Below, in pieces: positions 106 through 40,715 of a stretch of DNA of 42,428 nt; positions within the stretch are counted from its first letter, which is position 1, and each line of letters begins with the position of its first letter. The notes below the pieces were generated by a model. It saw nothing but the letters and a program-made list of their open reading frames with translations, was not told the origin of the DNA and searched no databases. Source of the DNA: Desulfobulbus propionicus (GTDB lineage: Bacteria; Desulfobacterota; Dissulfuribacteria; Dissulfuribacterales; DYOW01); NCBI GenBank assembly GCA_020720325.1, contig DYOW01000009.1, positions 1 to 42,428 on the forward strand. Direction: 5' to 3'. A program made the position numbers and the translations under genes.

Positions 106-2292
106 ATGGAAGATAATAATTTTATCACAAAATTCTGGAGTAATCTAAGTATTAAATTTAAATTTTTATTATCAATATATTTGATCCTTTTTATTGCCGT
201 AGCAATTGTCCTTGGCACAATATTACAAACTATTAATGCAAATGCTGAAAAAAGCTTGCGGGAGTACTCAAACAATGAAATTGAAAAAGTTAAGCAGGGT
301 TTAGAAAATTATGTAAACATGGCTTATGAGGTTGTTGATAGAAAATATAAAGAAGCAACAAAAAAAGAGAATATTGAAAGGAGATACGGGAGGTATCTAT
401 CCGATTTAATTGAATTGGCTTACTCAGAGATAACATTATATGTTAACGCAGCAGAACAGGGTAAGATGACCGTTGAAGAGGCGCAGGCAAAAACAATATC
501 TTTTTTAAAAACCGTAAGATATGATGATGGAACCGGTTATATCTGGATTAATGATATGACAAAGCCATTTCCCAAAATGATAATGCATCCAACTGTTTCA
601 TCTCTTGACGGCAAAGTTTTGGATGCTTCAAAATTTAACTGTGCTCGCGGGAAAAATGAAAACCTCTTTAAGGCATTTGTGGAGGTTGTTGAAACACATA
701 ATGGAAGTGGTTTTGTTGATTATCTTTGGCCAAAACCTACAAAAGACGGCTTAACAAAGGATCAGCCTAAATTATCTCATGTAAGGGAAATAAAGCAATG
801 GAAATGGATCATAGGCACTGGTGTTTATGTTGATGATGCCCTTTCCGATGCCGTTGAAGACATAAAAAATACCATCAGAGATATCAGATATGATAATGGA
901 GAGGGTTATATCTGGATAAATGATATGACAAAGCCATTTCCCAAAATGATAATGCACCCCATAAAACCTTCCCTTGAAGGAAAGCCGATGGATGACCCGA
1001 TATTTAATTGTGCTTTTGGAAAAAAAGAAAATGTTGGAAAGGCTTTTGTTGATATATGCGAAAAAAAACATGAGGGTTTTGTTGATTATGTTTGGCCAAA
1101 ACCCACAAAAGACGGCGGTTTAGCGACAAAGGAACAGCCAAAACTTTCCTTTGTAAAGGAATATAAACCGTTAAACTGGATAATTGGCACTGGTGTTTAC
1201 ACAGACCATATAGATGAAATGATCGCGCAGAAAAAAAATGAATTAAAGAGTCAGACTAAAAAATTATTATTAAAAATCGGCGTTGTTTTTTTATTCGCAG
1301 CAGTGATTTTACTTTTATTTATTAATTATCTTTCGGATTTAATTATAGTAAAACCTCTTAACAGCTCAAATAAATGGATAAATAAGGTTGCAACAGGTGA
1401 CTTTACCTCTAAAATAGATTTTAAGGTTAATAATGATGAAATAGGAAAGTTTATTTTGTCATTACAAAGGATGATTGAAGAATTAAAAGCAATTATCAGG
1501 AATGTTTCATCAGCATCAATGGATCTTAAAAATCATGGCATGAGTCTTCAAGGCGCAGCAACACAGTTATTATCCGAATCACAATCAACCCAGATGCATT
1601 CAGGGGCAATCAAAAATAATGCAAAAATATCCTCCGAAAGTGTAACGAGTGTTGCTGGCGCTATGGAGGAAATGGCTGCGACCATAAATGAAATCAGTAT
1701 GAATACAACAAAGGCAAAAGACGCTTCAGATAATGCAAACGAAAAGGCGCAAGCAGCAAATCAGGAAATAACCTCACTTTCTCAATCAGCGAATAAAGTA
1801 GGAGATATTACCAAGCTTATAGGGGAAATTGCCTCGCAAACCAATCTTCTTGCCTTAAATGCCACAATAGAGGCTGCAAGGGCAGGTGAAATGGGAAAAG
1901 GATTTGCAGTTGTCGCAAATGAGGTAAAAGAGCTTGCAAAGCAGACAGCCCAGGCTGTTGGAGAAATTGAGAATATTGTGCATGAGATACAAAGTCGGAC
2001 CAAAAATACCTCGCATGAAGTAACTCAGATTGTTGATGCAGTATCACATGTAACAGATATAACAAACACAATAGCCGCTGCAATAGAGCAACAATCCACA
2101 GCAGCATCAGAGATAAGCCGAAGAATACAGCTTGCGGGAAGCCAGGTTCTTAATACCTTTAACGCCACAGATTCCATTGTAAAATCAAGCAATATGACTA
2201 TAGAAAGCGCTGATAGCATAAAAGAGTCCGCAGATGAATTAAACAGGCTTTCCAAAATGCTTTCGGATGAAATGAAAAAATTTACTCTTTAG
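106..2292 (+). CDS. Methyl-accepting chemotaxis protein with two Cache modules
   Basis: Transmembrane chemoreceptor of 728 aa that should sense a periplasmic ligand and control CheA. TM1 is at about residues 18-40 and TM2 at about 385-410. Between them are two homologous sCache-type units, each with the signature [16 protein letters not shown] and ending IIGTGVY (about 137-244 and 260-367). A HAMP region (about 410-460) and an MCP signalling domain follow; the hairpin tip reads [17 protein letters not shown] near residue 580. There is no C-terminal NWETF-like CheR tether. GGAGG at 94-98 supports the start, and a hairpin terminator follows the stop. The two Cache units are nearly identical over a stretch of DNA. 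The ligand is unknown; small carboxylates are typical for sCache families, which is family knowledge only. Confidence 0.95.
514..1206 (+). repeat. Tandem intragenic duplication of the Cache unit
   Basis: Two copies with a 369-bp (123-codon) period lie inside the first MCP gene. The best-conserved segment, 535-590 versus 904-959, differs at only about two positions by eye. A second block (about 715-750 versus 1081-1116) is also nearly identical, and the sequence between is diverged. This suggests a fairly recent duplication or gene conversion. Confidence 0.8.
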
Positions 2293-2301
2293 AAAAATAT
2301 T

Positions 2302-2336
2302 AAGCCCTTTAACAGCATTTTGTTCGGGGGCTTTTT
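2302..2336 (+). terminator. Rho-independent terminator after the MCP gene
   Basis: AAGCCC (2302-2307) pairs with GGGCTT (2328-2333), with an inner AACA/TGTT pairing, followed by a T-rich tail. The T-run overlaps the stop codon of the convergent GH26 gene, so the hairpin may also serve that minus-strand operon. Confidence 0.75.
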
Positions 2337-3438
2337 ATTTAAAAAGTGGTTTGTCAATCCAATAATTATCTTTCATAATCTCCCTGAACACATTTAGTGA
2401 CTTTAAGCTTGAGTTAACCCTGATGTTGCTTATGCTTCCATCACTGTTTTCCCATCTTTCATGCCAGTAAACCACACCTTTTACAAGTGTATATCTGGTC
2501 TGAAAACTGCCATAAGCCTCTTTAAGCCACTCTGCCTTATCTCCATTTTGAGGAAATTCGCCAACACCCAATTCAGCAAGAATCAAGGGTTTATTCGGGG
2601 CAAGCTTTATCATCTCATTATATCCTTTATCTATCATATCAGGCCATTTAAGCCATCCCTGCCCGGGAAACTGCTGTCCGTAAACGCTTAAGCCTGTCCA
2701 GTCAACATATTCATCCCCCGGATAATAATTTGCAAAGACATTCCAGGGTTCGGCGGGGCTTGGTCCATTATTTGTATGAAATCCCCAGAGGATATTTTTT
2801 GTCCGTTTTCTTGCCCTGTCAACAACGTATTTATAAGCCTTTATAAAGGTGTCTGTGCCTTTATACGTGGTCTTTCCATTAATATTGATCTTTTCGCCTC
2901 CACCGCATAATACCCCGGACCACGGAAACCAGTGACCGTTCATTTCAATTGCAAAGGCAACCAGTATAGGATGGGAAAACTTGTTTGCCTCATCTGCCCA
3001 CATGTCAATATATGCATCCCATTTGCCTTCCAGGATGGAGGCAAAGTTGTATTTTTTATCAATTCCTCTTTCCTGCTGGTAGGGTCTGTCCCAGGGAGAC
3101 CAGTAAATCAGGGGAATTGCCCCGTAATTATGTATTAGTTTACAATTATCCATTGGAAAAGTATTTTCACCCCAGTAGCTTGATGATGCAATAATTGCCT
3201 GATGTTTGCCCACAAGTTTTTCAAAATCAAGCATTGCCTCAAAGGTTACATTGTCTTCACCATCACCAAAATCGATATATGCGCCTGTGTAGGCGCCTTT
3301 TTCTGGGAAAATAAAGGTTTTATTATTTTTTTCAGTATTGGTTATTGGTTTTGTTAGTTCCTGATTTTGACAGGAATAAGAAAAAAACAATATTGATAAC
3401 GAAAATAACAAGGCAAAAATTTTAAGTAAGTTTTTCAT
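2335..3438 (-). CDS. GH26 family (beta-mannanase-like) lipoprotein
   Basis: Glycoside hydrolase of 367 aa. The N-terminus is a lipoprotein-type signal (hydrophobic 7-19, candidate lipidation Cys23 in SYSC), so it is probably anchored facing the periplasm or exterior. The fold markers of GH26 are present: the acid/base Glu165 in IEMNGHWFPW and the nucleophile Glu289 in LAELGVGE, plus WGFHTNNG and YVDWTGLSVYG segments. GH26 enzymes usually cleave beta-1,4-mannan, and some act on other beta-glucans. It lies 46 bp downstream of the GH18-like/NodB/GT2 fusion gene on the same strand and is probably co-transcribed. That context suggests it trims or releases the polymer made by the fusion protein rather than digesting food mannan. 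Substrate is not determinable from sequence. Confidence 0.88.
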   Translation of the reverse strand: MKNLLKIFALLFSLSILFFSYSCQNQELTKPITNTEKNNKTFIFPEKGAYTGAYIDFGDGEDNVTFEAMLDFEKLVGKHQAIIASSSYWGENTFPMDNCKLIHNYGAIPLIYWSPWDRPYQQERGIDKKYNFASILEGKWDAYIDMWADEANKFSHPILVAFAIEMNGHWFPWSGVLCGGGEKININGKTTYKGTDTFIKAYKYVVDRARKRTKNILWGFHTNNGPSPAEPWNVFANYYPGDEYVDWTGLSVYGQQFPGQGWLKWPDMIDKGYNEMIKLAPNKPLILAELGVGEFPQNGDKAEWLKEAYGSFQTRYTLVKGVVYWHERWENSDGSISNIRVNSSLKSLNVFREIMKDNYWIDKPLFK

Positions 3439-3484
3439 GTTTCTCCTTTTTTATTTGCTCCAATCACAGAAAAATTTATTAAAT

Positions 3485-6400
3485 TTAAGATTTAATCAGG
3501 GAGTTGTCAAGATTTATGCTAACAGATGCAGACCTGTCTAATTTTCCCCAGCCTACCCAGATTCCCTGTATTGCCCTCAGCAGCACCTTCCACATTACAT
3601 AACCCAGAAGGGCTTTATAAAAAAATCTCATCGGGATAATAATAAAAGATTTTTTTATTCCTTCACCTTCCATTATACAAGCGGCAATGGCAAGAAATAT
3701 ATCTATAAGGATAAATAATGCGAAAAAGATATATAGTACAGGGTTAATTGGATTTAATAAGGTCAGAAGAAAAAACGTATCAATAACAGGTCCTATTGCA
3801 ATAAGAAAAATATGAAAAAACCACATTCCCGGTATTGCAAAAAGACCTAATGTGCCAAAACCTGGTGAAAATGCCATATCCCTGTGTTTCCAAAGGCATT
3901 GAAGTGTTCCATAACCCCATCTTATTCTTTGTTTTACAAGGGATTTTATGGTTTCAGGGGCTTCTGTCCATGCAACGGCATTTTTTGCATATACCACCCT
4001 GTAACCTGTTCTGTGAAGACTTAGCGTAAAATCAGTATCTTCAGCAAGGGTATCGTTTGTTATTCCCCCTGCCTTTAATAATGCTGTTTTTCTCACTGCG
4101 CATACAGCTCCCGGAACAACAGTTATGCAGTTAAGCTCATGATAAGCCCTTCTGTCAAGATTAAAACCTGAAATATATTCAAGGTCCTGGCATCTTGAAA
4201 TAAAATTTCTACTGTTCCCTACCCTTGCGTGACCTGAGACAGCGCCAACCTTTGGGTCAATAAAGGGAATCACAAGATTTCTCACAGTATCTTTCTGAAA
4301 CTGTGTGTCAGCGTCAAGCATTATAATAATCTCGTTTTTTGCTATAGATATGCCGTTTTTCAGCGCAAGAGCCTTTCCTGCATTTTCCTGTCTCACAAGG
4401 ATAATTTCAGGAAATTTTTTTGCAAGGCTTGAAACAACAATGCTTGTATCGTCTTTTGAACCGTCATCTATAATAATTATTTCCTTTTTCCCTTTATAGT
4501 CGGAATTAATGAGGGATAAAAGTGTTTTTTCTATAACTTTTCCTTCATTATAAGCAGATATAAGGATGGTGACCTGTGGATTAAACAAATTATCTTTTGA
4601 TTGATATTTTTTTGTTTTATACCGTAGGGCAAAGAAAAAGACAATAGCGCCCCTTAATACCACAAGAACAGTTGAGATTATTATAAATGCCCAAAAAATT
4701 TCGTTTAACCATCTTTTTACCTTAATGCCTGTTCCTGCCACAATGCGTGTAAGATTTTGCTTTCCTGCATCCGCAAAGGGCATTAATACTGATTTATCAA
4801 TTCCTGCAACCTCATCAAGGGAAACAATTTTATCTCCCCTATCCCTAAAAAACTTAATAATAAGCGGCAATGCCTCCACTGTCTGGCTTCTGTCGCCGCC
4901 CGCGTCATGAAGGAGAACAACATTGCCTTCATTACGTTCATTTTTTATATTTTCAAGGATTTTTTCCACACCGGGTTTTTCCCAATCCTTAGAATCAATG
5001 GTATAGGCAATTGTAAAATACCCCATATCCTGAATCTGAATAAAAGGGTTAAATTCCTGGTAAGATATTGGTTTATTATCGCTGTAGGGAGGTCTGAAAA
5101 GCAACGCTGATTTGCCGGTGATTGCCTGTATTAATCTTTCGGAGGCGTTAAGCTCAAGCGTTATTCTTTCCCTGCTGATTTGATATATATCCGGGTGGGT
5201 GTAGGAATGGATGCCAATAAGATGGCCTTCGTTTACTATTCTTCTTACAAGCTCAGGTTGTTTTTCAGCCTTTGCGCCAAGTATAAAAAATGTTGCCTGA
5301 ACATTATTTTCTTTCAGAATATCAAGAAGTTTTGGGGTATACTGGGGATCAGGCCCGTCATCAAATGTAATTGCAATTTTTGAGGAGTCTGTTCTTTGTC
5401 TTGATACATTATAATATGACGGTATTTCAGTATAGGTTTCATAAAAAGAACCATCTGTATTTTGTATGATTTTTCTCTTGCCGTCAAATGCTTTATTATC
5501 AAATGAAAGCAATTCCCCTTCACCGACATTTGCAATAATGTCATTTGTCTGTATGTTTGCTATTTGATTAAACAGTTCTTCATCTGTATATGGTTCTTCC
5601 TCAAGAAAATTTGAAAAAATTTTCCACACAGCCGCATCTTCAAACCCAAGTGTGCTAATTGAAACCCCGCCTTTCATTTTTGTTTTCACAGCATTAAAGG
5701 TGTTTAAAAACGTCACTGCATCAAGAAACCATACCTCATGAATATTGTTATTAATTTCATAAATAAAATTAGGCTCAAGGCTTTCTTTATTCATTGCAAA
5801 ATTGGTGATTCCTGATTGCCTTGCCCGTATCATTGCATCCGGAAAACTAATTAGCCCCCCTTTTTTATTTTTTTCCCAATCATAGCCATAGTTTCCTATA
5901 TCAATGATCCATTGTTCAGGAGAGCCATAAGCGCTTATTGTATCAGACCATCCCTGAACCCATGAAATGGATGAAATTGGGCCTGGCTCATCGTTTTCAG
6001 AATTTTCATCATGAAGGGATGCTATAAATTTATCAACAAAGACAGAAAGTCCTTCAAGGTTATATGCCCTTAATTCAAGCCCCATAGGCAGGCACAACCA
6101 GAGCTGTTTTTGATTTTCCTTTAATTGATGCGAAAGCAACTCAAAAAATTGCGTATAGTTATTCCTGTATGAGGGGTCTATCATACCAAAATCAACTATT
6201 AAGCCGGCCGCATTGATTTCATTGATTTCTTCAGTTATTTTTTTTATAAATTGTTCTTTGACTGTATTATCGTTGTTTACAATATCCTCCACAGCTTCAG
6301 GCATCCATTTATCTGTTTCAAGGTTTTTTAAAACAGGCATAAAATTAACCTTTTTTTCCTTTAATAAGTGAAGCAATTCTTCGTCATTATTAATTTTTAG

Positions 6401-6823
6401 CCGTGAATCATCTAAAGATATTGTGAACCAGTCTGAAGCGACATGGGTGAGAAATTTTGCGTTTTCTTCTAAGGATTTCCAGCTTCTCCTGTCCCAGTTT
6501 ATATAAAATCCCAAATTAATAAAATCCGATTTTTTTTGTTCATGAATTAGATTGTTCTGATTTTTATTTAATGTCCTTGAAAACTGCAGCCATTCTTTTT
6601 TGGATAAATAATGATTATCAGCGTTTTGATCCATTGCCTTTAATTTAGTTTTCATTTCTTTTATCTGTACGGGTATGTTAAAGACAGGTTTTACAAATAA
6701 AGATTTAATAAATATAACGGTTAATAATGAGAAAATGATTGAAAAAATAAAAAAAAAGGATTTAAACCTTGACCAGCGTCTTCCAGAGGCATCATGGAAG
6801 ATAAAGGAATTTTGATTATGCAT
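3485..6823 (-). CDS. Trimodular membrane polysaccharide synthase: GH18-like, NodB deacetylase, GT2
   Basis: A 1112-aa fusion. TM1 is at about 19-45. A GH18-like barrel (about 95-430) follows, then a NodB polysaccharide deacetylase (about 480-690), TM2 (about 700-730), a GT2 processive glycosyltransferase (about 755-1000) and further TM segments to the C-terminus. NodB motifs are intact: TFDDGPD (Asp488-Asp489), HSYTH (His539, His543), RPPYS and LLHDAGG. GT2 motifs are intact: DDGS, DAD (837-839), EDTD and QRIRW. In the GH18-like domain the catalytic Glu of the DxxDxDxE motif appears to be Gly213 (IVDFGMID), so this domain is probably non-hydrolytic. The predicted topology puts GH18 and NodB outside and GT2 in the cytoplasm. 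By analogy with PgaB and PgaC it would make and deacetylate an amino-sugar polymer. Similar GH18/NodB/GT2 fusions are known. Confidence 0.92.
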   Translation of the reverse strand: MHNQNSFIFHDASGRRWSRFKSFFFIFSIIFSLLTVIFIKSLFVKPVFNIPVQIKEMKTKLKAMDQNADNHYLSKKEWLQFSRTLNKNQNNLIHEQKKSDFINLGFYINWDRRSWKSLEENAKFLTHVASDWFTISLDDSRLKINNDEELLHLLKEKKVNFMPVLKNLETDKWMPEAVEDIVNNDNTVKEQFIKKITEEINEINAAGLIVDFGMIDPSYRNNYTQFFELLSHQLKENQKQLWLCLPMGLELRAYNLEGLSVFVDKFIASLHDENSENDEPGPISSISWVQGWSDTISAYGSPEQWIIDIGNYGYDWEKNKKGGLISFPDAMIRARQSGITNFAMNKESLEPNFIYEINNNIHEVWFLDAVTFLNTFNAVKTKMKGGVSISTLGFEDAAVWKIFSNFLEEEPYTDEELFNQIANIQTNDIIANVGEGELLSFDNKAFDGKRKIIQNTDGSFYETYTEIPSYYNVSRQRTDSSKIAITFDDGPDPQYTPKLLDILKENNVQATFFILGAKAEKQPELVRRIVNEGHLIGIHSYTHPDIYQISRERITLELNASERLIQAITGKSALLFRPPYSDNKPISYQEFNPFIQIQDMGYFTIAYTIDSKDWEKPGVEKILENIKNERNEGNVVLLHDAGGDRSQTVEALPLIIKFFRDRGDKIVSLDEVAGIDKSVLMPFADAGKQNLTRIVAGTGIKVKRWLNEIFWAFIIISTVLVVLRGAIVFFFALRYKTKKYQSKDNLFNPQVTILISAYNEGKVIEKTLLSLINSDYKGKKEIIIIDDGSKDDTSIVVSSLAKKFPEIILVRQENAGKALALKNGISIAKNEIIIMLDADTQFQKDTVRNLVIPFIDPKVGAVSGHARVGNSRNFISRCQDLEYISGFNLDRRAYHELNCITVVPGAVCAVRKTALLKAGGITNDTLAEDTDFTLSLHRTGYRVVYAKNAVAWTEAPETIKSLVKQRIRWGYGTLQCLWKHRDMAFSPGFGTLGLFAIPGMWFFHIFLIAIGPVIDTFFLLTLLNPINPVLYIFFALFILIDIFLAIAACIMEGEGIKKSFIIIPMRFFYKALLGYVMWKVLLRAIQGIWVGWGKLDRSASVSINLDNSLIKS

Positions 6824-7009: not shown

Positions 7010-7034
7010 AAAACTATGCAAAAATAAAAAAAAT

Positions 7035-7040
7035 GGAGGG
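7035..7040 (+). promoter_or_regulatory. Ribosome binding site deciding the ppsA start
   Basis: GGAGGG lies 5 nt before the ATG at 7045. An in-frame ATG at 7033 overlaps this Shine-Dalgarno sequence and has none of its own, so 7045 is the better start. Confidence 0.75.
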
Positions 7041-7044
7041 ATTT

Positions 7045-9480
7045 ATGTTAAAACCTTTTATTATGTGGTTTGACCAGATATCAATTAACGATGTAGGACT
7101 TGTGGGTGGTAAAAACGCATCTCTTGGTGAAATGTACAGAAACCTAAAATCTAAAGGTGTAAACATCCCCAATGGTTTTGCTATTACTGCTGAGGCATAT
7201 AAACACCTGTTAAAACATGGTGGCATAGAAAATGAGATTGAATCTGCTATGGAAGGACTTGACACTCATGACATTGATAATTTGAAAAAAAGAGGGAAAA
7301 AAATCAGAGAAATAATATTAAATTCCCCGTTTCCTCCTGATCTTGAAGAGGAAATTCTTAAATCTTATAAAGATCTATCCAACGCATACAAAACTGAAAA
7401 TGTTGATGTCGCGGTGAGATCTTCAGCCACTGCCGAAGACCTGCCAGACGCATCCTTTGCAGGTCAACAGGAAACCTATCTAAATATCACCGGGGCAAAA
7501 ACTTTAATTAATGCGTGTCAGAAATGTTTTGCAAGCCTTTTTACTGACAGGGCAATTTCATACAGACAAGACAAGGGATTCGGACACTTTGATGTGTATC
7601 TGTCCATAGCTGTGATGAAAATGGTAAGAAGCGACAGCTCAAGCAGCGGTGTTATGTTTACAATTGATACTGAAAGTGGTTTTAAAGATGTTGTATATGT
7701 CACAGGCGCATGGGGTCTTGGTGAAAATGTTGTGCAGGGAGCTGTTAATCCTGATCAGTTTTATATATTTAAGCCATTATTAAATACTGATAAAAGACCC
7801 ATCATTCATAAAAAACTTGGCTTAAAACAAAAAACAATGATTTATACAAATAATCCTTCTGCTCCTGTTAAAAATATCCCTACCAAGCCGGCAATGAAAA
7901 ATACATTTGTATTAAATGATGATGAGCTTTTAACCCTTGGAAGATGGGCATGTATCATTGAAGACCATTATAAAAAATCAATGGATATTGAATGGGCAAA
8001 GGATGGTGATGGCAAGACTATTGGCACAGGAGAGCTTTTTATTGTTCAGGCGCGTCCGGAAACCGTTCACTCCCAGCGTGATATAAATTTTTATGAAACA
8101 TATGTCTTAAAAAGCAACGGCAAGCTTCTTGTCACCGGAAATGCAGTGGGCGCCAAGATTGGCAAAGGAAAAGCAAATATTATAGAAGAAGTAAAAGATA
8201 TCTCAAACTTCAAAAAAGGTGAAATCCTTATCACTGATATGACAGACCCTGACTGGGAGCCAATAATGAAAATTGCCTCAGCCATTGTGACAAACAGGGG
8301 TGGAAGAACCTGTCATGCAGCGATAATTTCAAGGGAACTTGGCATCCCATGTATTGTAGGAACTGAAAACGGAACCGCTAAGTTAAAAGGTGTTAAAGAG
8401 GTTACTGTCTCATGTTGTGAAGGAGAAGAAGGCAGGGTTTATGAAGGACTTCTCGATTTTGAGGTTCAAAGGATAAATATCACCGAATTGCCACAAACAA
8501 AGACGAAAATAATGATGAATGTGGGTATTCCTGAACAGGCATTTAACCAGGGGCAAATTCCAAATGACGGGGTAGGTCTTGCAAGGCTTGAGTTTATTAT
8601 TAACTCTCACATAGGAATTCATCCCCTTGCTCTTATACATTTTGAAGAGCTTGTAAAAAAATCAAATGCAGAACCTAAGAATTCCCGTCTTAAAGGCTTA
8701 ATAAACCTGATAGAGAATAAAACTTCAGCATATAAGGATAAATCGAAGTTTTTTGTAGATACCCTTGCCCAGGGAGTCGCAAGGATTGCGGCAGGATTTT
8801 ATCCAAATGACGTTATTGTAAGAATGTCTGATTTCAAGACCAATGAATATGCAAACCTTGTGGGCGGCACAATTTATGAACCAATAGAACACAATCCAAT
8901 GATTGGTTGGCGCGGAGCGTCCCGTTATTATGCGCCTAATTTTGAACCTGCTTTTGCCCTTGAGTGTGAGGCTTTAAAGAAGGTCAGGGATGAAATGGGA
9001 TTATCCAATGTAAAGACAATGATACCATTTTGCAGAACCGTTGAAGAAGGCAAAAAAGTCATTGAAGTAATGGAAAAATACGGCTTAAAACAGGGAGAAA
9101 ACGGACTTGAAATATATGTGATGTGCGAAATTCCAAGCAATGTTATCCTTGCGGATGAATTCTGCAAAGTATTTGACGGATTTTCAATAGGCTCAAACGA
9201 CCTTACCCAGCTTACCCTTGGTCTTGACAGGGATTCAGAGCTTGTTTCCCATATTTATGACGAAAGAAATGAGGCTGTAAAAAGGCTTATAAGACAGGTG
9301 ATAAACACTGCTAAGGCAAATGGAAGAAAAATAGGCATCTGCGGCCAGGCGCCCAGTGATTTCCCTGATTTTGCGGCATTTCTTGTGGAATGCGGAATTG
9401 ATTCCATGAGCCTCACCCCTGACACAGCAATTAAAACCAGAATGATAGTCGCTGAAAAGGAAAAAGAATTGGGAAAATAA
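7045..9480 (+). CDS. ppsA: Phosphoenolpyruvate synthase
   Basis: PEP synthase (pyruvate, water dikinase) converts pyruvate, ATP and water to PEP, AMP and phosphate; it feeds gluconeogenesis, essential when growing on C2 compounds or autotrophically. With the ATG at 7045 it has 811 aa, normal for the family. The N-terminal ATP-grasp-like domain carries VAVRSSATAEDLPDASFAGQ. The swivelling domain carries the phosphohistidine His424 in GGRTCHAAIISRELG. The C-terminal PEP-binding barrel carries GSNDLTQLTLGLDRD and the catalytic Cys766 in GICGQAPSD. All key residues are present. It is monocistronic: own promoter candidate upstream and a strong terminator 28 bp after the stop. Confidence 0.97.
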   Translation: MLKPFIMWFDQISINDVGLVGGKNASLGEMYRNLKSKGVNIPNGFAITAEAYKHLLKHGGIENEIESAMEGLDTHDIDNLKKRGKKIREIILNSPFPPDLEEEILKSYKDLSNAYKTENVDVAVRSSATAEDLPDASFAGQQETYLNITGAKTLINACQKCFASLFTDRAISYRQDKGFGHFDVYLSIAVMKMVRSDSSSSGVMFTIDTESGFKDVVYVTGAWGLGENVVQGAVNPDQFYIFKPLLNTDKRPIIHKKLGLKQKTMIYTNNPSAPVKNIPTKPAMKNTFVLNDDELLTLGRWACIIEDHYKKSMDIEWAKDGDGKTIGTGELFIVQARPETVHSQRDINFYETYVLKSNGKLLVTGNAVGAKIGKGKANIIEEVKDISNFKKGEILITDMTDPDWEPIMKIASAIVTNRGGRTCHAAIISRELGIPCIVGTENGTAKLKGVKEVTVSCCEGEEGRVYEGLLDFEVQRINITELPQTKTKIMMNVGIPEQAFNQGQIPNDGVGLARLEFIINSHIGIHPLALIHFEELVKKSNAEPKNSRLKGLINLIENKTSAYKDKSKFFVDTLAQGVARIAAGFYPNDVIVRMSDFKTNEYANLVGGTIYEPIEHNPMIGWRGASRYYAPNFEPAFALECEALKKVRDEMGLSNVKTMIPFCRTVEEGKKVIEVMEKYGLKQGENGLEIYVMCEIPSNVILADEFCKVFDGFSIGSNDLTQLTLGLDRDSELVSHIYDERNEAVKRLIRQVINTAKANGRKIGICGQAPSDFPDFAAFLVECGIDSMSLTPDTAIKTRMIVAEKEKELGK

Positions 9481-35548: not shown

Positions 35549-38500
35549 ATGATGCGTCCTAAAGGCTCGGTTCTTGTTGTCGGTGGGGGAATAAGCGGGG
35601 TTCAGGCATCACTTGATCTGGCTAACAGCGGTTTTTTTGTGCATCTTATTGAGAAAAAACCCTCAATAGGCGGCAAAATGGCCCAGCTTGACAAGACTTT
35701 TCCCACAAACGACTGTTCAGCATGTATTCTTTCACCAAAGCTTGTTGAGGCGGGAAGGCATCCAAATATCAAGCTCCACACCCTTTCGGAAATTGTTGAG
35801 CTTAAAGGCGATGTGGGAGATTTCACAGCGATTGTCAAACAATATCCAAGATATATTGACACATCAAAATGTATTGCTTGTGGCGCATGCGCTGAAAAAT
35901 GTCCTAAAAAAGTGGAAAATGAATTTGATTTTGCCCTTGGAACAAGAAAATCTGCATACATACCTTACCCACAGGCAGTTCCGTTAAAATATCTTATTGA
36001 CAAAGAAAGTTGTATCTGGTTAAAAAATCCCGGAAGGTGCGGATTTTGTCAGAAAGTCTGTCCCGCTGGAGCTGTAAATTTTGAAGACACAGAAAAAATT
36101 ATTCAGATAAATGCCGGCGCAGTCATAATATCCACAGGCTACACCACCTTTAATCCCCAATCCCTTGATTATACCGGCTATAAAATCATACCAAATGTGG
36201 TGACAGCTCTGGAATTTGAAAGGATACTTAGCCCATCAGGTCCATGTATGGGACATCTTGAAAGACCATCCGATAAAAAAGTCCCCAAAAAAATAGCATG
36301 GCTTCAATGCGTTGGCTCGCGCTCCATGTCGCGGGACTCAAAGCCTTACTGTTCTTCATTTTGCTGTATGTATGCCATAAAACAGGCTGTTATTTCAAGG
36401 GAGCATTCAAAAGAACATCTTTCAGCAAGCATCTTTTATATGGATATGAGGACGCATGGCAAGGATTTTGAGGCATATTACAACAGGGCGAAAAAAAGCG
36501 GGATAAATTTTATTAAGGCAAGGGTTCATAATATTGTTCCAACGCACGAGGGAAATGTCATTATAAGATATTCAACCCCTGATAAAAAAATAAATTATGA
36601 GGAATTTGACCTTGCGGTTCTGTCAACAGGCATTGAAACAGATCTATCCACTATTAACCTTGCCAGACACTTAAATATAGAACTTGATGATAATAATTTT
36701 ATCAAGACGGAGACTTTTAACCCCTCTAAAACCTCACGAAACGGCATATTTGTCTGCGGAAATGCCGGAAGCCCGAAGGATATCCCGCAATCTGTCATGG
36801 ACGCAAGCGCCGCCTCAGTAAATGTATCGGGATTTATATTTCAATCAAGGTGGGAAGACACAGTAAATATTGAAAGACCAAAGGAAAGAAATATATCTGC
36901 AGAGTCTCCCAAGATTGGAGTTTTTGTCTGTCACTGCGGGATCAATATTTCAAGTGTTGTGGATGTAAAGGCTGTGTCTGAGTATGCAAGGACATTAAAG
37001 GATGTGGCGTTTGTTCAGGACAATATTTTCTCATGCTCACAGGATACCATTGGTCAGATGGTGAATATAATAAAAGAAAAATCACTAAACAGGGTTGTTG
37101 TGGCCTCATGCAGCCCCAGAACTCATGAAGCCCTTTTTCAGGAAACACTGGAGGATGCAGGACTTAACAGATATCTCTTTGAAATGGCAAATATAAGGGA
37201 TCAGGATTCATGGGTGCACAAAGATAATCCTGAAAAAGCAACCCGCAAGGCAATGGATCTGGTAAGGATGGCTGTTAACAGGGTGCGTTCCTATAATGCG
37301 CTTCCTTTTAATTCTGTAGGCGTAAATAAAACCGCCCTTGTCATAGGCGCCGGAGTCGCGGGAATCACCGCTGCTTTAAGCATTGCGGATCAGGGTTTTC
37401 CTGTTGTTCTTGTTGAGAGAAAGGACAGGCTTGGCGGACATGCAAATAAATTTTTTATGACATGGCAGGGAGATGATGTAAGAAAATATCTTGATAATAT
37501 CACGGAAAAGGTAAAAAATCACCCGAACATCACCCTTAAATTAAATAATGAGATAAGCGATGTTAAAGGCTCTGTGGGCAGGTTTTCAACTACATTATCT
37601 GACGGAAGCCAAATTGATCACGGCGTGGCAATTGTTGCCATTGGCGGTGAGTCCTATAAACCAAAGGATAAAAATCTGCCGCATAATTATTTATACAATC
37701 AAAATCCCAATGTTATGACCCTTCTTGAGCTGGATCAGAAATTTTTAAAAAATGAAATAGACGCGAAAAATATTAATACCGCTGTTTTTATTCACTGCGT
37801 TGGCTCAAGGATTCCCCAAAGACCTTATTGCAGCCGGGTATGCTGCACACATGCCATACAACGCGCGATTGAGCTTAAGAAACAAAAGCCACTGATGAAA
37901 ATTTTTATGTTATACCGTGACATAAGGACATTTGGCGTTATTGAAAGGCTTTACACCGAGGCAAGAGAGCTTGGCATATTATTTTTAAGACACGACACAG
38001 AGCATTTTCCTGTTGTGACAGAAGAAAACAAAAAGATAATAGTCCTTGCATGGGATGAGGTTTTGCAAACAAATATTGAGATTCACCCGGATATGCTTGT
38101 TCTTGCATCTGGGGTGCGTCCCAGAGATGATGCAAAAAAACTTGCGATGCTCTTTAAGTGCGCGATAAATCAGGACGGTTACTTACTTGAGGCTCACTTA
38201 AAATTAAGACCCGTTGACTTTGCAACCGAAGGAATTTTTCTTGCGGGATTATGCCACTATCCAAAGTTTATTGATGAGTCTGTTTCGCAGGCAATGGCAG
38301 CGGCAGGCAGGGCGCTAACCATTCTTTCAAAGGATGTCATTCCCGCTGAAAGCATTGTAGCTAATGTAAATATTCAAAAATGCGCTGCGTGCGCTGTGTG
38401 TATTGAGGTATGCCCTTATAAGGCAATATCAATGGATGAAAAAACAGGAAAAGCCATTGTAAATGAAACACTCTGCAAGGGATGCGGGGCATGTGTCGCC

Positions 38501-38599
38501 GGTTGTAGGTCGGATGCAATAATATTAAAAAACATTGGAAATATTGAGATAATTTCTGCAATAAAGGCTGGATTGGAGGAAACGCTTTTTTTTAATTGA
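35549..38599 (+). CDS. Double HdrA-type FAD/iron-sulfur oxidoreductase
   Basis: A 1016-aa cytoplasmic flavoprotein made of two HdrA units. Unit 1 (about 1-440): FAD fold VLVVGGGISGVQASLDLA, the HdrA block NDCSACILSPKLVEAGRHPNI, ferredoxin motif CIACGACAEKCPKK, a CGFCQKVCP cluster site, and YCSSFCCMYAIKQ. Unit 2 (about 460-940): FVCHCGINIS, SCSPRTHEALFQ, a second FAD site VIGAGVAGITAAL, and YCSRVCCTHAIQ. The C-terminus has two [4Fe-4S] motifs (CAACAVCIEVCP, CKGCGACVAGC). Such proteins take part in flavin-based electron bifurcation with HdrBC, hydrogenase or formate dehydrogenase partners; sulfate reducers often carry several. No HdrB/C gene is present, but an MvhD-like gene follows after an inserted MCP gene. 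Confidence 0.93.
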   Translation: MMRPKGSVLVVGGGISGVQASLDLANSGFFVHLIEKKPSIGGKMAQLDKTFPTNDCSACILSPKLVEAGRHPNIKLHTLSEIVELKGDVGDFTAIVKQYPRYIDTSKCIACGACAEKCPKKVENEFDFALGTRKSAYIPYPQAVPLKYLIDKESCIWLKNPGRCGFCQKVCPAGAVNFEDTEKIIQINAGAVIISTGYTTFNPQSLDYTGYKIIPNVVTALEFERILSPSGPCMGHLERPSDKKVPKKIAWLQCVGSRSMSRDSKPYCSSFCCMYAIKQAVISREHSKEHLSASIFYMDMRTHGKDFEAYYNRAKKSGINFIKARVHNIVPTHEGNVIIRYSTPDKKINYEEFDLAVLSTGIETDLSTINLARHLNIELDDNNFIKTETFNPSKTSRNGIFVCGNAGSPKDIPQSVMDASAASVNVSGFIFQSRWEDTVNIERPKERNISAESPKIGVFVCHCGINISSVVDVKAVSEYARTLKDVAFVQDNIFSCSQDTIGQMVNIIKEKSLNRVVVASCSPRTHEALFQETLEDAGLNRYLFEMANIRDQDSWVHKDNPEKATRKAMDLVRMAVNRVRSYNALPFNSVGVNKTALVIGAGVAGITAALSIADQGFPVVLVERKDRLGGHANKFFMTWQGDDVRKYLDNITEKVKNHPNITLKLNNEISDVKGSVGRFSTTLSDGSQIDHGVAIVAIGGESYKPKDKNLPHNYLYNQNPNVMTLLELDQKFLKNEIDAKNINTAVFIHCVGSRIPQRPYCSRVCCTHAIQRAIELKKQKPLMKIFMLYRDIRTFGVIERLYTEARELGILFLRHDTEHFPVVTEENKKIIVLAWDEVLQTNIEIHPDMLVLASGVRPRDDAKKLAMLFKCAINQDGYLLEAHLKLRPVDFATEGIFLAGLCHYPKFIDESVSQAMAAAGRALTILSKDVIPAESIVANVNIQKCAACAVCIEVCPYKAISMDEKTGKAIVNETLCKGCGACVAGCRSDAIILKNIGNIEIISAIKAGLEETLFFN

Positions 38600-38679
38600 A
38601 CTTTAATCCCATTAAGATTTCTTAAAAGATTGAAATTATGCTAAACTATTTTAATTATTTCTATTAAAATGGGTGTTAA

Positions 38680-40287
38680 ATGAAATTAAAGCAACAAATT
38701 CAAATCGGCGTGACATTTATAATGGTTTTTGCAACCATCATAGCAATTTTTATCGCATGGGCAATGCCTATCTTAAATGGCAATTACAAGCTGCAAAACC
38801 AGGCGCAGGAAACTGAAAAACTTCTTTTGAAAATTGAGGCAGATGGAAATTATATTTCAAGGGCAACAAGGAATATCATTCTTGGCTCTGATTATGATAA
38901 AAATATGGACTCAATACATAAGAAAATTAAATCAATTGAAGATAGTTTCAAAAAAATTGAGAAATTAAAAGACGATTATAAAAAATTATGGTTAAATTCA
39001 GATGAAAATACCAATTTTTTAAAGATTGCAAAGACAGACCAGATGTCTTTTATTCTTGAATCAAAAAGAATCATGGAACGCTTACAGGATGTGGCTCCTG
39101 AATCAAGAAATTCCATGTATAAAGAATATAGCAAGGTTATCTCGCCTCCTGCAGAAAAGGCAAGAGAAAGCTTTCAAAAACTTTCCGAAGTCGCCAATAA
39201 ATTTGCCATTGAAAATTCTGAAAGCTTTGAGAATAAATTAAATACCCTTAAAATAATTCTTATTTTTTGTATGTTATCATGTGGCATTGTTGTTGCCCTG
39301 ATGTTTTTAATTTTCTGGAAAATCTTTATGAAGCAGCTTGGCGCAGAGCCTCATCAGCTTGCAGATATTGCGGATGGCATTTCAAAGGGAGATATGAGGA
39401 CTTTTTGTGATTTATCTGATTCAGATAAAGGGGTTCTTGCAGCTCTTAGCGCCATGAAAAACAAAATTACCGAGCTTGTGTATAAAATCCAGCAATCCTC
39501 TTCAGTGCTTTTTGAATTTAATGAGCAGCTTCATTCTTCTTCTGAAAATTTATTGAATATCTCATACTCAAATCACAAAAAGACGCTTGCAGCAAAGACA
39601 GATATAGACTTTACAATCCAGTCTGTAAGCAATGTTGCGGCTGCAATAGAGGAAATGGTTGCGACAATAGGAGAAATCAGTAATAACAGCGAAAAAGCAA
39701 GGAGTTCGGCATTACAAACTTATGATAAGGCTGTAGAGGCCAAATCTGTTATGGAAAATCTCTCAAATTCAGCCCAAAAAGTAAGCTCAGTTAGCAACAT
39801 TATAGGACAGATTGCCAGCCAGACAAATCTTCTTGCGCTTAATGCAACAATAGAGGCTGCAAGGGCAGGCGAGGCCGGAAAGGGTTTTGCTGTTGTGGCA
39901 AACGAGGTTAAGGAGCTTGCAAAGCAAACAGGCCAATCAGTGGCTGAGATAGAAAATATAATAAATGAAATCCAGTCAGGCTGTAATTCAGCCCAAAAAG
40001 TTGCTCAGGAAATACTTGATTCAATAAATATTGTTTCCGGGCTTTCAAACAGCACGGCAATTTCTATTGAACAGCAGTCTCAGGCAACCTCCGAGATTAG
40101 CAGCAGGATAAATGATTCAGATGCAAAATTAAAGGATATGGCGAGATTTTTTGATGGAATGGAGGCAACAGGGGGAAAAATTGTCGAAATTGCAGGAGAT
40201 GTTAAAACTGTTGCCGAGGATCAAAATGAGATTGCAGAAGTTTTAAAACATGATATATCTTATTTTAAATGTGAAATAAAAAGATAA
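38680..40287 (+). CDS. Methyl-accepting chemotaxis protein between hdrA and mvhD genes
   Basis: A 535-aa chemoreceptor. TM1 is at about 8-30, a helical periplasmic sensor (four-helix-bundle type, about 31-185) follows, TM2 is at about 187-212, then a HAMP-like region and an MCP signalling domain. The tip sequence [21 protein letters not shown] lies near residue 380. No C-terminal pentapeptide. It lies 80 bp after the double-HdrA gene and only 8 bp before the MvhD-like gene, so it is probably part of the same transcript. No classic RBS is obvious. The periplasmic domain has no recognisable PAS or heme motif, so a direct redox sensor is not evident. Confidence 0.93.
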
Positions 40288-40295
40288 AAATATTT

Positions 40296-40715
40296 ATGGA
40301 AAATTTTGAACCTAAAATAATTGCCTTTTTGTGTACATGGTGTAGCTACGCAGGCGCTGACCTTGCTGGCATATCCCGTTTTCAGTATGCGCCCAATATA
40401 CGCATTATTAAAACGCCATGTTCAGGCAGGGTAAGCCCTCAGATGATACTTGCGGCTTTGATGCAGGGAGCAGACGGCGTCCTTGTATCCGGCTGCCATC
40501 CGGGTGACTGCCATTATATGACAGGAAATCTCTTTGCAAGAAGGCGTTTTGCCCTATTAAAAGGACTTCTTGAATTTATTGGCATTGAAAAAGACAGGGT
40601 AAATTTTACATGGGTTTCTGCATCGGAAGGGGAGCAGTTTGCAAAAATCGTTAATGAAGTCACAAAAAAAATTAAGGAACTAGGCCCCAACAAAAAACTT
40701 CTGTATGAATTATAA
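40296..40715 (+). CDS. MvhD-like iron-sulfur subunit (HdrA partner)
   Basis: A 139-aa protein of the methyl-viologen-reducing hydrogenase delta subunit family, which passes electrons between hydrogenase or other donors and HdrA via a [2Fe-2S] cluster. Conserved cysteines are Cys13 and Cys16 (FLCTWCSYAGAD), Cys42 (TPCSGRVSP), Cys67 and Cys72 (GCHPGDCHY). Full length for the family. It starts 8 nt after the MCP stop with no clear Shine-Dalgarno, suggesting coupling. Its natural partner in the window is the double-HdrA protein two genes upstream. No hydrogenase genes are in view. Confidence 0.93.
   Translation: MENFEPKIIAFLCTWCSYAGADLAGISRFQYAPNIRIIKTPCSGRVSPQMILAALMQGADGVLVSGCHPGDCHYMTGNLFARRRFALLKGLLEFIGIEKDRVNFTWVSASEGEQFAKIVNEVTKKIKELGPNKKLLYEL

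Follow-up and report, generated by a model that had tools for sequence, protein, structure and literature searches.

A conserved gene pair joining a GH18-like/CE4/GT2 fusion protein with a GH26 protein is a candidate exopolysaccharide system of Desulfobacterota and Verrucomicrobiota

Introduction

Streptomyces MatB, the nearest characterized synthase to the protein described here, is a CE4-TM-GT2 fusion that makes and is needed for PNAG (PMC5972031). A synthase operon carrying a GH26 gene is known as well, the arabinose-polysaccharide (APS) operon of S. meliloti (PMC7902896). A 2026 paper on Actinoplanes stated that a Wzx/Wzy cluster with a GH26 was yet to be characterized (PMC13390465), indicating that GH26 enzymes in EPS clusters have been little studied.

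Here, we describe a pair of genes in which the GH26 partner accompanies a triple fusion of GH18-like, CE4, and GT2 domains. Each part comes from a known family, and both a bifunctional deacetylase-synthase and a GH26 synthase operon are on record. We know of no GH26 enzyme that acts on amino-sugar polymers, and no report of the fusion/GH26 pair, or of the triple fusion with GH26, was found in the open-access literature, in which absence is weak evidence. A preliminary description of the locus considered GH26 unusual beside an amino-sugar-type synthase. That stands insofar as no report of the pairing was found, but the presence of GH26 in a synthase operon is not itself new, given the S. meliloti case with its cellulose-type GT2 (PMC7902896).

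Results

A two-gene locus

The window analyzed is a stretch of 42,428 nucleotides from a contig of Desulfobulbus propionicus (DYOW01000009.1). Its minus strand carries the fusion gene (3485..6823), with a product of 1112 aa, and downstream of it on the same strand the GH26 gene (2335..3438), with a product of 367 aa; both ORFs were confirmed at these coordinates. The 46-nt gap between them (3439..3484, minus strand) has an AAGGAG ribosome-binding site ahead of the GH26 ATG and no terminator-like site. Upstream of the fusion gene and divergent from it is a gene for phosphoenolpyruvate synthase (7033-9480, plus strand), and past the GH26 gene, in the opposite orientation, is a dCache chemoreceptor gene (106-2292, plus strand). 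No outer-membrane porin gene adjoins the pair, and the rest of the window holds ordinary housekeeping and signalling genes. Each member of the pair is single-copy in the 2.44 Mb assembly.

At 35549-40715 of the window, a 1016-aa HdrA2-like protein is followed by an MCP-domain protein and then by an FlpD/MvhD-type subunit, a gene order that is odd for an electron-bifurcating cluster.

Conservation and co-evolution of the pair

A close fusion (37-49% identity) was found in 25 genomes of Desulfobacterota and Verrucomicrobiota, and in 22 of them a GH26 gene lies directly downstream on the same strand. With this adjacency in two phyla, the recurrence of the pair is not chance, and the idea that the pairing is unique to the window genome is refuted. 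The genome search suggested in the preliminary description thus found the pairing conserved, and the proposal of a single operon agrees with the shared strand and short gap in the window as well as with the 22 adjacent pairs elsewhere.

A single genome scan returned five GH26 relatives, four with a 1117-1121-aa fusion ORF directly upstream and the fifth, from Udaeobacter, with the fusion on a different contig. In the first sample (488 genomes from two phyla, with a close GH26 defined by an identity of at least 45%), the 10 genomes with a full fusion were the same 10 that had a close GH26, adjacent in all. They comprised 5 of the 247 genomes from the phylum of the window and 5 of the 241 from that of the Verrucomicrobia MAG, the fusion and the adjacent GH26 being present in the same five in each case. 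The sample drawn for the phylum of the window was identical to that obtained with a Desulfobacterales MAG, which places the window genome in the phylum termed Desulfobacterota here. Larger draws gave the fusion in 12 of 345 and 9 of 388 genomes, and nine of 11 new genomes from these draws had the GH26 directly downstream. The exceptions among the 25 are G777 and G891, with a fusion and no adjacent GH26, and G247, whose GH26 is on another contig; GH26 is therefore not strictly needed in cis.

Stop and start codons of the two genes frequently overlap, as in the TGATG at locus L005, and one Verrucomicrobiota genome, G754, contains two full fusion and GH26 cassettes in tandem (L118 3473-12586), the fusions of both being 42-44% identical to the window fusion. 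The distance matrices of the fusion and GH26 proteins were correlated with a Mantel r of 0.78, which none of 9999 permutations reached, and the sub-clades G101+G052, G034+G132, and G264+G418+G247 are present in both protein trees. Two Desulfobacterota sequences are nested, at moderate support, within Verrucomicrobiota in the tree of the fusion, a placement hinting that the pair may have been transferred as one unit.

An all-against-all ORF comparison across 13 neighborhoods revealed no third conserved gene. The pair alone was shared, and the additional ORF clusters were overlapping antisense ORFs or scattered ABC and kinase paralogues; a third gene or a porin conserved nearby was accordingly rejected as a candidate. 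No PgaA or PgaD homologue is linked to the pair, and none of 14 fusion genomes had a match over the cut-off to the PgaA porin model (TIGR03939), which one of 14 control genomes did. The earlier remark that the locus has no porin is therefore borne out in the window, in the neighborhoods, and in the genomes searched with this model.

Architecture of the fusion protein

The preliminary description held that a single polypeptide places a GT2 synthase, a NodB deacetylase, and a GH18-like part on the two sides of the membrane, and domain searches and transmembrane helices agree with this. All features are encoded on the minus strand. Hydropathy places a first TM helix at residues ~26-44, and the GH18-like domain follows (5564..6526, residues ~100-420) as delimited by phmmer and AlphaFold2/Foldseek. 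The CE4/NodB deacetylase (4808..5395, residues ~477-672) and the GT2 synthase domain (3908..4579, residues ~749-972), both recognized by Pfam and by their motifs, flank a second TM helix located by hydropathy (residues ~713-731). The C-terminal TM helices occupy residues ~992-1085, of which hydropathy gives about 992-1050. The Pfam matches were to Polysacc_deac_1 at 477-583 (E 8e-36) and to GT2 families at 749-1031 (E 4e-30). An AlphaFold2 model with a mean pLDDT of 78 comprises a TM helix, a GH18-like barrel, CE4, a long TM helix, GT2, and further TM helices, in the same order as obtained by hydropathy. Foldseek matched this model to SleL, GH18 chitinases, hyaluronan and cellulose synthases, and a Bc1960/PgdA-type deacetylase.

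The CE4 motifs TFDDGP, HSYTH, RPPY, and LLHD are intact in the window fusion, as are the D, DxD (D837/D839), AED (E928/D929), and QxxRW (965-969) motifs of GT2. Both sets, as TFDDGP, H(S/T)xxH, RPPY, and LLHD for CE4 and DDG, DADT, AEDTD, and QRxRW for GT2, are kept clade-wide, and the rare substitutions spare the catalytic residues. In having CE4 and a PgaC-like GT2 in one polypeptide with a TM helix between them, the protein resembles the bifunctional enzymes of the MatB type.

The GH18-like domain has a degenerate site

The window copy of the GH18-like domain gave no Pfam match. SleL/YaaH-type GH18 structures nonetheless match the window fusion at about 114-404 (phmmer, E 2e-12), PF00704 matches 10 of 13 fusion orthologues, and a structural search with the AlphaFold2 model retrieved SleL together with a GH18 chitinase (E 1e-21). 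In the position of the DxE of active GH18 enzymes is D211-F212-G213, with Gly213 replacing the catalytic Glu, and the GH18-like part of the window protein is for this reason unlikely to be hydrolytic. The earlier label of GH18-like is thus right as to the domain, which profile matches to orthologues and the predicted fold both recover, but it should not be taken to mean a hydrolase. The GH153 domain of PgaB is a hydrolase although it is without the second catalytic residue of GH18/GH20 (PMC5933820), so that activity by another route stays conceivable.

The catalytic DxE (of DxxDxDxE) is intact in 9 of 25 clade fusions; in the others, G, Q, A, N, or S replaces the Glu, or the Asp is lost. In the first sets compared, DxE was kept in six of six partnerless fusions versus six of 14 with GH26 (Fisher p 0.04, from phylogenetically non-independent sequences), which is only suggestive of a link between GH18 decay and the gain of a partner hydrolase. 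That decay strictly tracks this gain was rejected, since G777 and G891 have lost DxE and yet have no adjacent GH26.

The relatives of these domains bring the cell wall into consideration. The GH18 part is nearest to the spore cortex-lytic SleL and the CE4 nearest to peptidoglycan deacetylases, and the two might bind and deacetylate peptidoglycan-type chains, so that the system would build or remodel a glycan that stays in the periplasm or on the wall instead of being secreted; the lack of a porin, whether linked or above the cut-off, would suit such a role. Peptidoglycan is not, however, the product of a processive GT2. Moreover, the CE4 of MatB also has its best match in PgdA although MatB makes PNAG (PMC5972031), and similarity to PgdA is therefore not diagnostic. 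We regard a cell-wall role as improbable.

Affinities of the GT2 domain

The best NCBIfam model for the GT2 domain was PgaC_IcaA with 197 bits, followed by NodC (97) and CelA (76). Since the PgaC_IcaA score (TIGR03937) is below the curated cut-off of 422, PNAG itself falls short of being established as the product. A GT2 tree placed the window protein with PgaC/IcaA and the MatB-like synthase, apart from NodC, the cellulose synthases, and the GT2 of the S. meliloti GH26 operon. Together, the best model, the position in the tree, and the MatB precedent make a partly deacetylated, PNAG-like polymer the best guess from sequence.

The GH26 protein

The 367-aa protein matches Glyco_hydro_26 in Pfam with 39.8 bits against a cut-off of 20.2, and the acid/base E165 and nucleophile E289 are invariant across the clade GH26 proteins. 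The His of the HE motif, present in CtLic26A and the mannanases, is missing from the clade. The residue ahead of the acid/base is Ile in the window protein and Ile, Leu, Val, Asn, or Cys in the clade. This motif, which has been called a defining feature of GH26, is not present in the xylanase branch or in one further branch of unknown function (PMC6556568). The changed -1 subsite residue would fit a substrate with a substituted C2, for example GlcNAc or GlcN.

By sequence (E 8e-25), profile, and fold, the nearest solved structure is the lichenase CtLic26A, which is 28-32% identical to the window GH26. The predicted structure (pLDDT 86) matched CtLic26A in Foldseek with an E value of 4e-24 and a TM-score of 0.86-0.90 by target length, and mannanases ranked behind it with E about 1e-13 by fold. 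CtLic26A being a beta-1,3-1,4-glucanase, this result is a counterpoint to a PNAG-like polymer. Together with the GH26 beside a cellulose-type GT2 in the S. meliloti operon (PMC7902896), it would suit a synthase making a neutral or mixed beta-glucan-type polymer trimmed by a lichenase-like GH26, in the manner of the cellulases of cellulose operons. A neutral glucan, however, would offer little work for a CE4 deacetylase whose motifs are all intact. In addition, the GT2 falls on the PgaC/IcaA/MatB side of the tree, at a distance from BcsA, CelA, and the S. meliloti GT2, and the His ahead of the acid/base is kept by CtLic26A but not by the clade. A glucan product thus appears unlikely.

Most of the GH26 enzymes characterized are beta-mannanases that break down polysaccharides (PMC6556568) and this GH26 is exported, so that one could picture an enzyme for scavenging or for plant polysaccharides that does no more than share the operon of the synthase. 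Against this are the linkage held across two phyla by co-evolving sequences, the lack of any transporter or other GH genes conserved beside GH26, and the distance from all mannanases of an enzyme without the HE motif; we consider scavenging very improbable. For the same reasons of motif and distance, a role as a plant-mannan degrader was rejected, and the clustering with such degraders that had been raised earlier as a concern was not seen.

The protein has an N-terminal export signal and had been called a lipoprotein. The signal itself and a Cys that aligns at this position in 12 of 14 GH26 orthologues favor the call, but the window lipobox, FSYSC (Cys23), is poor, making a lipoprotein probable, and plausible rather than clean. 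The surface location proposed in the preliminary description is putative.

Other HE-less GH26 proteins were encountered. Three Verrucomicrobiota genomes with the pair (L055, L056, and L057) hold a second, unlinked GH26 from another HE-less branch, with Thr or Val ahead of the acid/base. G156, from the same order as the window and without a fusion, encodes a solitary 479-aa GH26 (L087 2784-4223; 38% identity) with Pro ahead of the acid/base, located between apparent TRAP-transporter genes and a nucleotide-sugar dehydratase gene.

A wider fusion family without GH26

Searches of plasmids by tblastn revealed the GH18-CE4-GT2 order, with an identity of 30-33% and over 75-99% of the length, in Deinococcus, Sphingobium, Novosphingobium, Sphingomonas, Prevotella, and Sulfitobacter. 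These proteins are annotated merely as glycosyltransferase, no report of their function was found in the literature, and GH26 was found beside none of the plasmid fusions. DxE is kept in them, with the exception of Sulfitobacter. The architecture is thus widespread, and the GH26 pairing marks one clade of it. The preliminary description had regarded the fusion of these activities as a departure from known systems, a view contradicted by the plasmid fusions of six genera and by the CE4-GT2 protein MatB (PMC5972031).

The surroundings of the wider-family genes differ by group. On Sulfitobacter plasmids L066, L080, and L082, a DUF995 gene precedes the fusion and a DUF3131 gene follows it, adjacent or in one case overlapping, and in Sulfitobacter L081 the fusion is split into a GH18-CE4 gene and a GT2 gene. 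In three genera of sphingomonads the fusion adjoins a VirJ/AcvB-type lysyl-phosphatidylglycerol hydrolase and a lysyl-PG synthase (LPG_synthase/MprF), the loci being L063 2958-6568, L064 10345-13690, and L067 5789-6541 and 12968-15562. A Kocuria plasmid (L070 2346-5651) has a MatB-like CE4-GT2 gene that encodes no GH18 domain; next to it, in convergent orientation, is a GH18 "chitinase" gene of its own, so that the locus looks like the triple fusion taken apart.

Discussion

We propose, with a probability of roughly 0.6, that the pair is a compact exopolysaccharide system composed of a porin-less, PNAG-like synthase/deacetylase and a dedicated GH26 that cuts the same polymer. In the cytosol, the GT2 domain would polymerize a beta-linked chain of amino sugars that most likely resembles poly-GlcNAc, and it would extrude this chain via the TM helices of the fusion itself. 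On the periplasmic side, CE4 would strip some of the N-acetyl groups, while the GH18-like domain, which in the window is without the catalytic Glu, would hold the chain or guide it. Once exported, probably as a lipoprotein, the GH26 would cut or trim the same polymer and might thereby set chain length, clear stalled chains, or release the polymer. We infer the direction of synthesis, the topology, and the partial deacetylation from the families concerned; the identity of the polymer and its role as the GH26 substrate are putative, the latter being suggested by linkage and co-evolution. At the outer membrane, the polymer might use an unlinked porin or might not cross at all, being periplasmic or wall-bound.

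More tentatively, the HE-less GH26 branch could represent a new specificity, endo-acting on a partly deacetylated amino-sugar polymer and serving in trans a synthase whose GH18 is often non-catalytic. The porin-less two-gene cassette would then make, deacetylate, and trim an unreported exopolysaccharide in Gram-negative bacteria, a possibility that we hold to be somewhat doubtful.

The proposed system is a small, testable exopolysaccharide module of two genes, conserved in two phyla and represented here mainly by metagenome-assembled genomes, that would have polymerase, deacetylase, and chain-binding part in one molecule and the cutting enzyme as its fixed partner. How such a polymer would get past the outer membrane when no porin is linked is a further question that it poses. 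If it is true that the GH26 cuts an amino-sugar polymer, the reach of GH26 extends past mannan, xylan, and mixed glucan, and the enzyme becomes a candidate against PNAG-type biofilms.

The locus shares features with described systems. In Streptomyces MatAB, one protein likewise contains a CE4 and a PgaC-type GT2 with a TM helix joining them, and the Kocuria MatB-like protein has a GT2 that is 42% identical to that of the window. MatB has no GH18-like domain, however, its partner MatA, without any known domain, is no GH26 protein, and the host is Gram-positive. The Pga/Hms and Ica systems (PgaABCD, IcaADBC) provide, in PgaC/IcaA, the nearest characterized GT2 family model, and PgaB also unites a CE4 deacetylase with a glycoside-hydrolase-type domain (GH153). 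In these systems the parts are separate polypeptides, the order in PgaB is CE4 then GH whereas in the window fusion it is GH then CE4, a GH18-like domain replaces GH153, and the window pair has no linked PgaA porin or PgaD. The S. meliloti APS operon, whose gene order was matched to L078, resembles the pair as a GT2 synthase operon with a GH26 gene, but its GT2 is on the cellulose-synthase side, it has no CE4/GH18 part, and its polymer contains arabinose. Finally, CtLic26A of Clostridium thermocellum is the closest solved GH26 and has the HE motif, in contrast to the window GH26, in which Ile is ahead of the acid/base.
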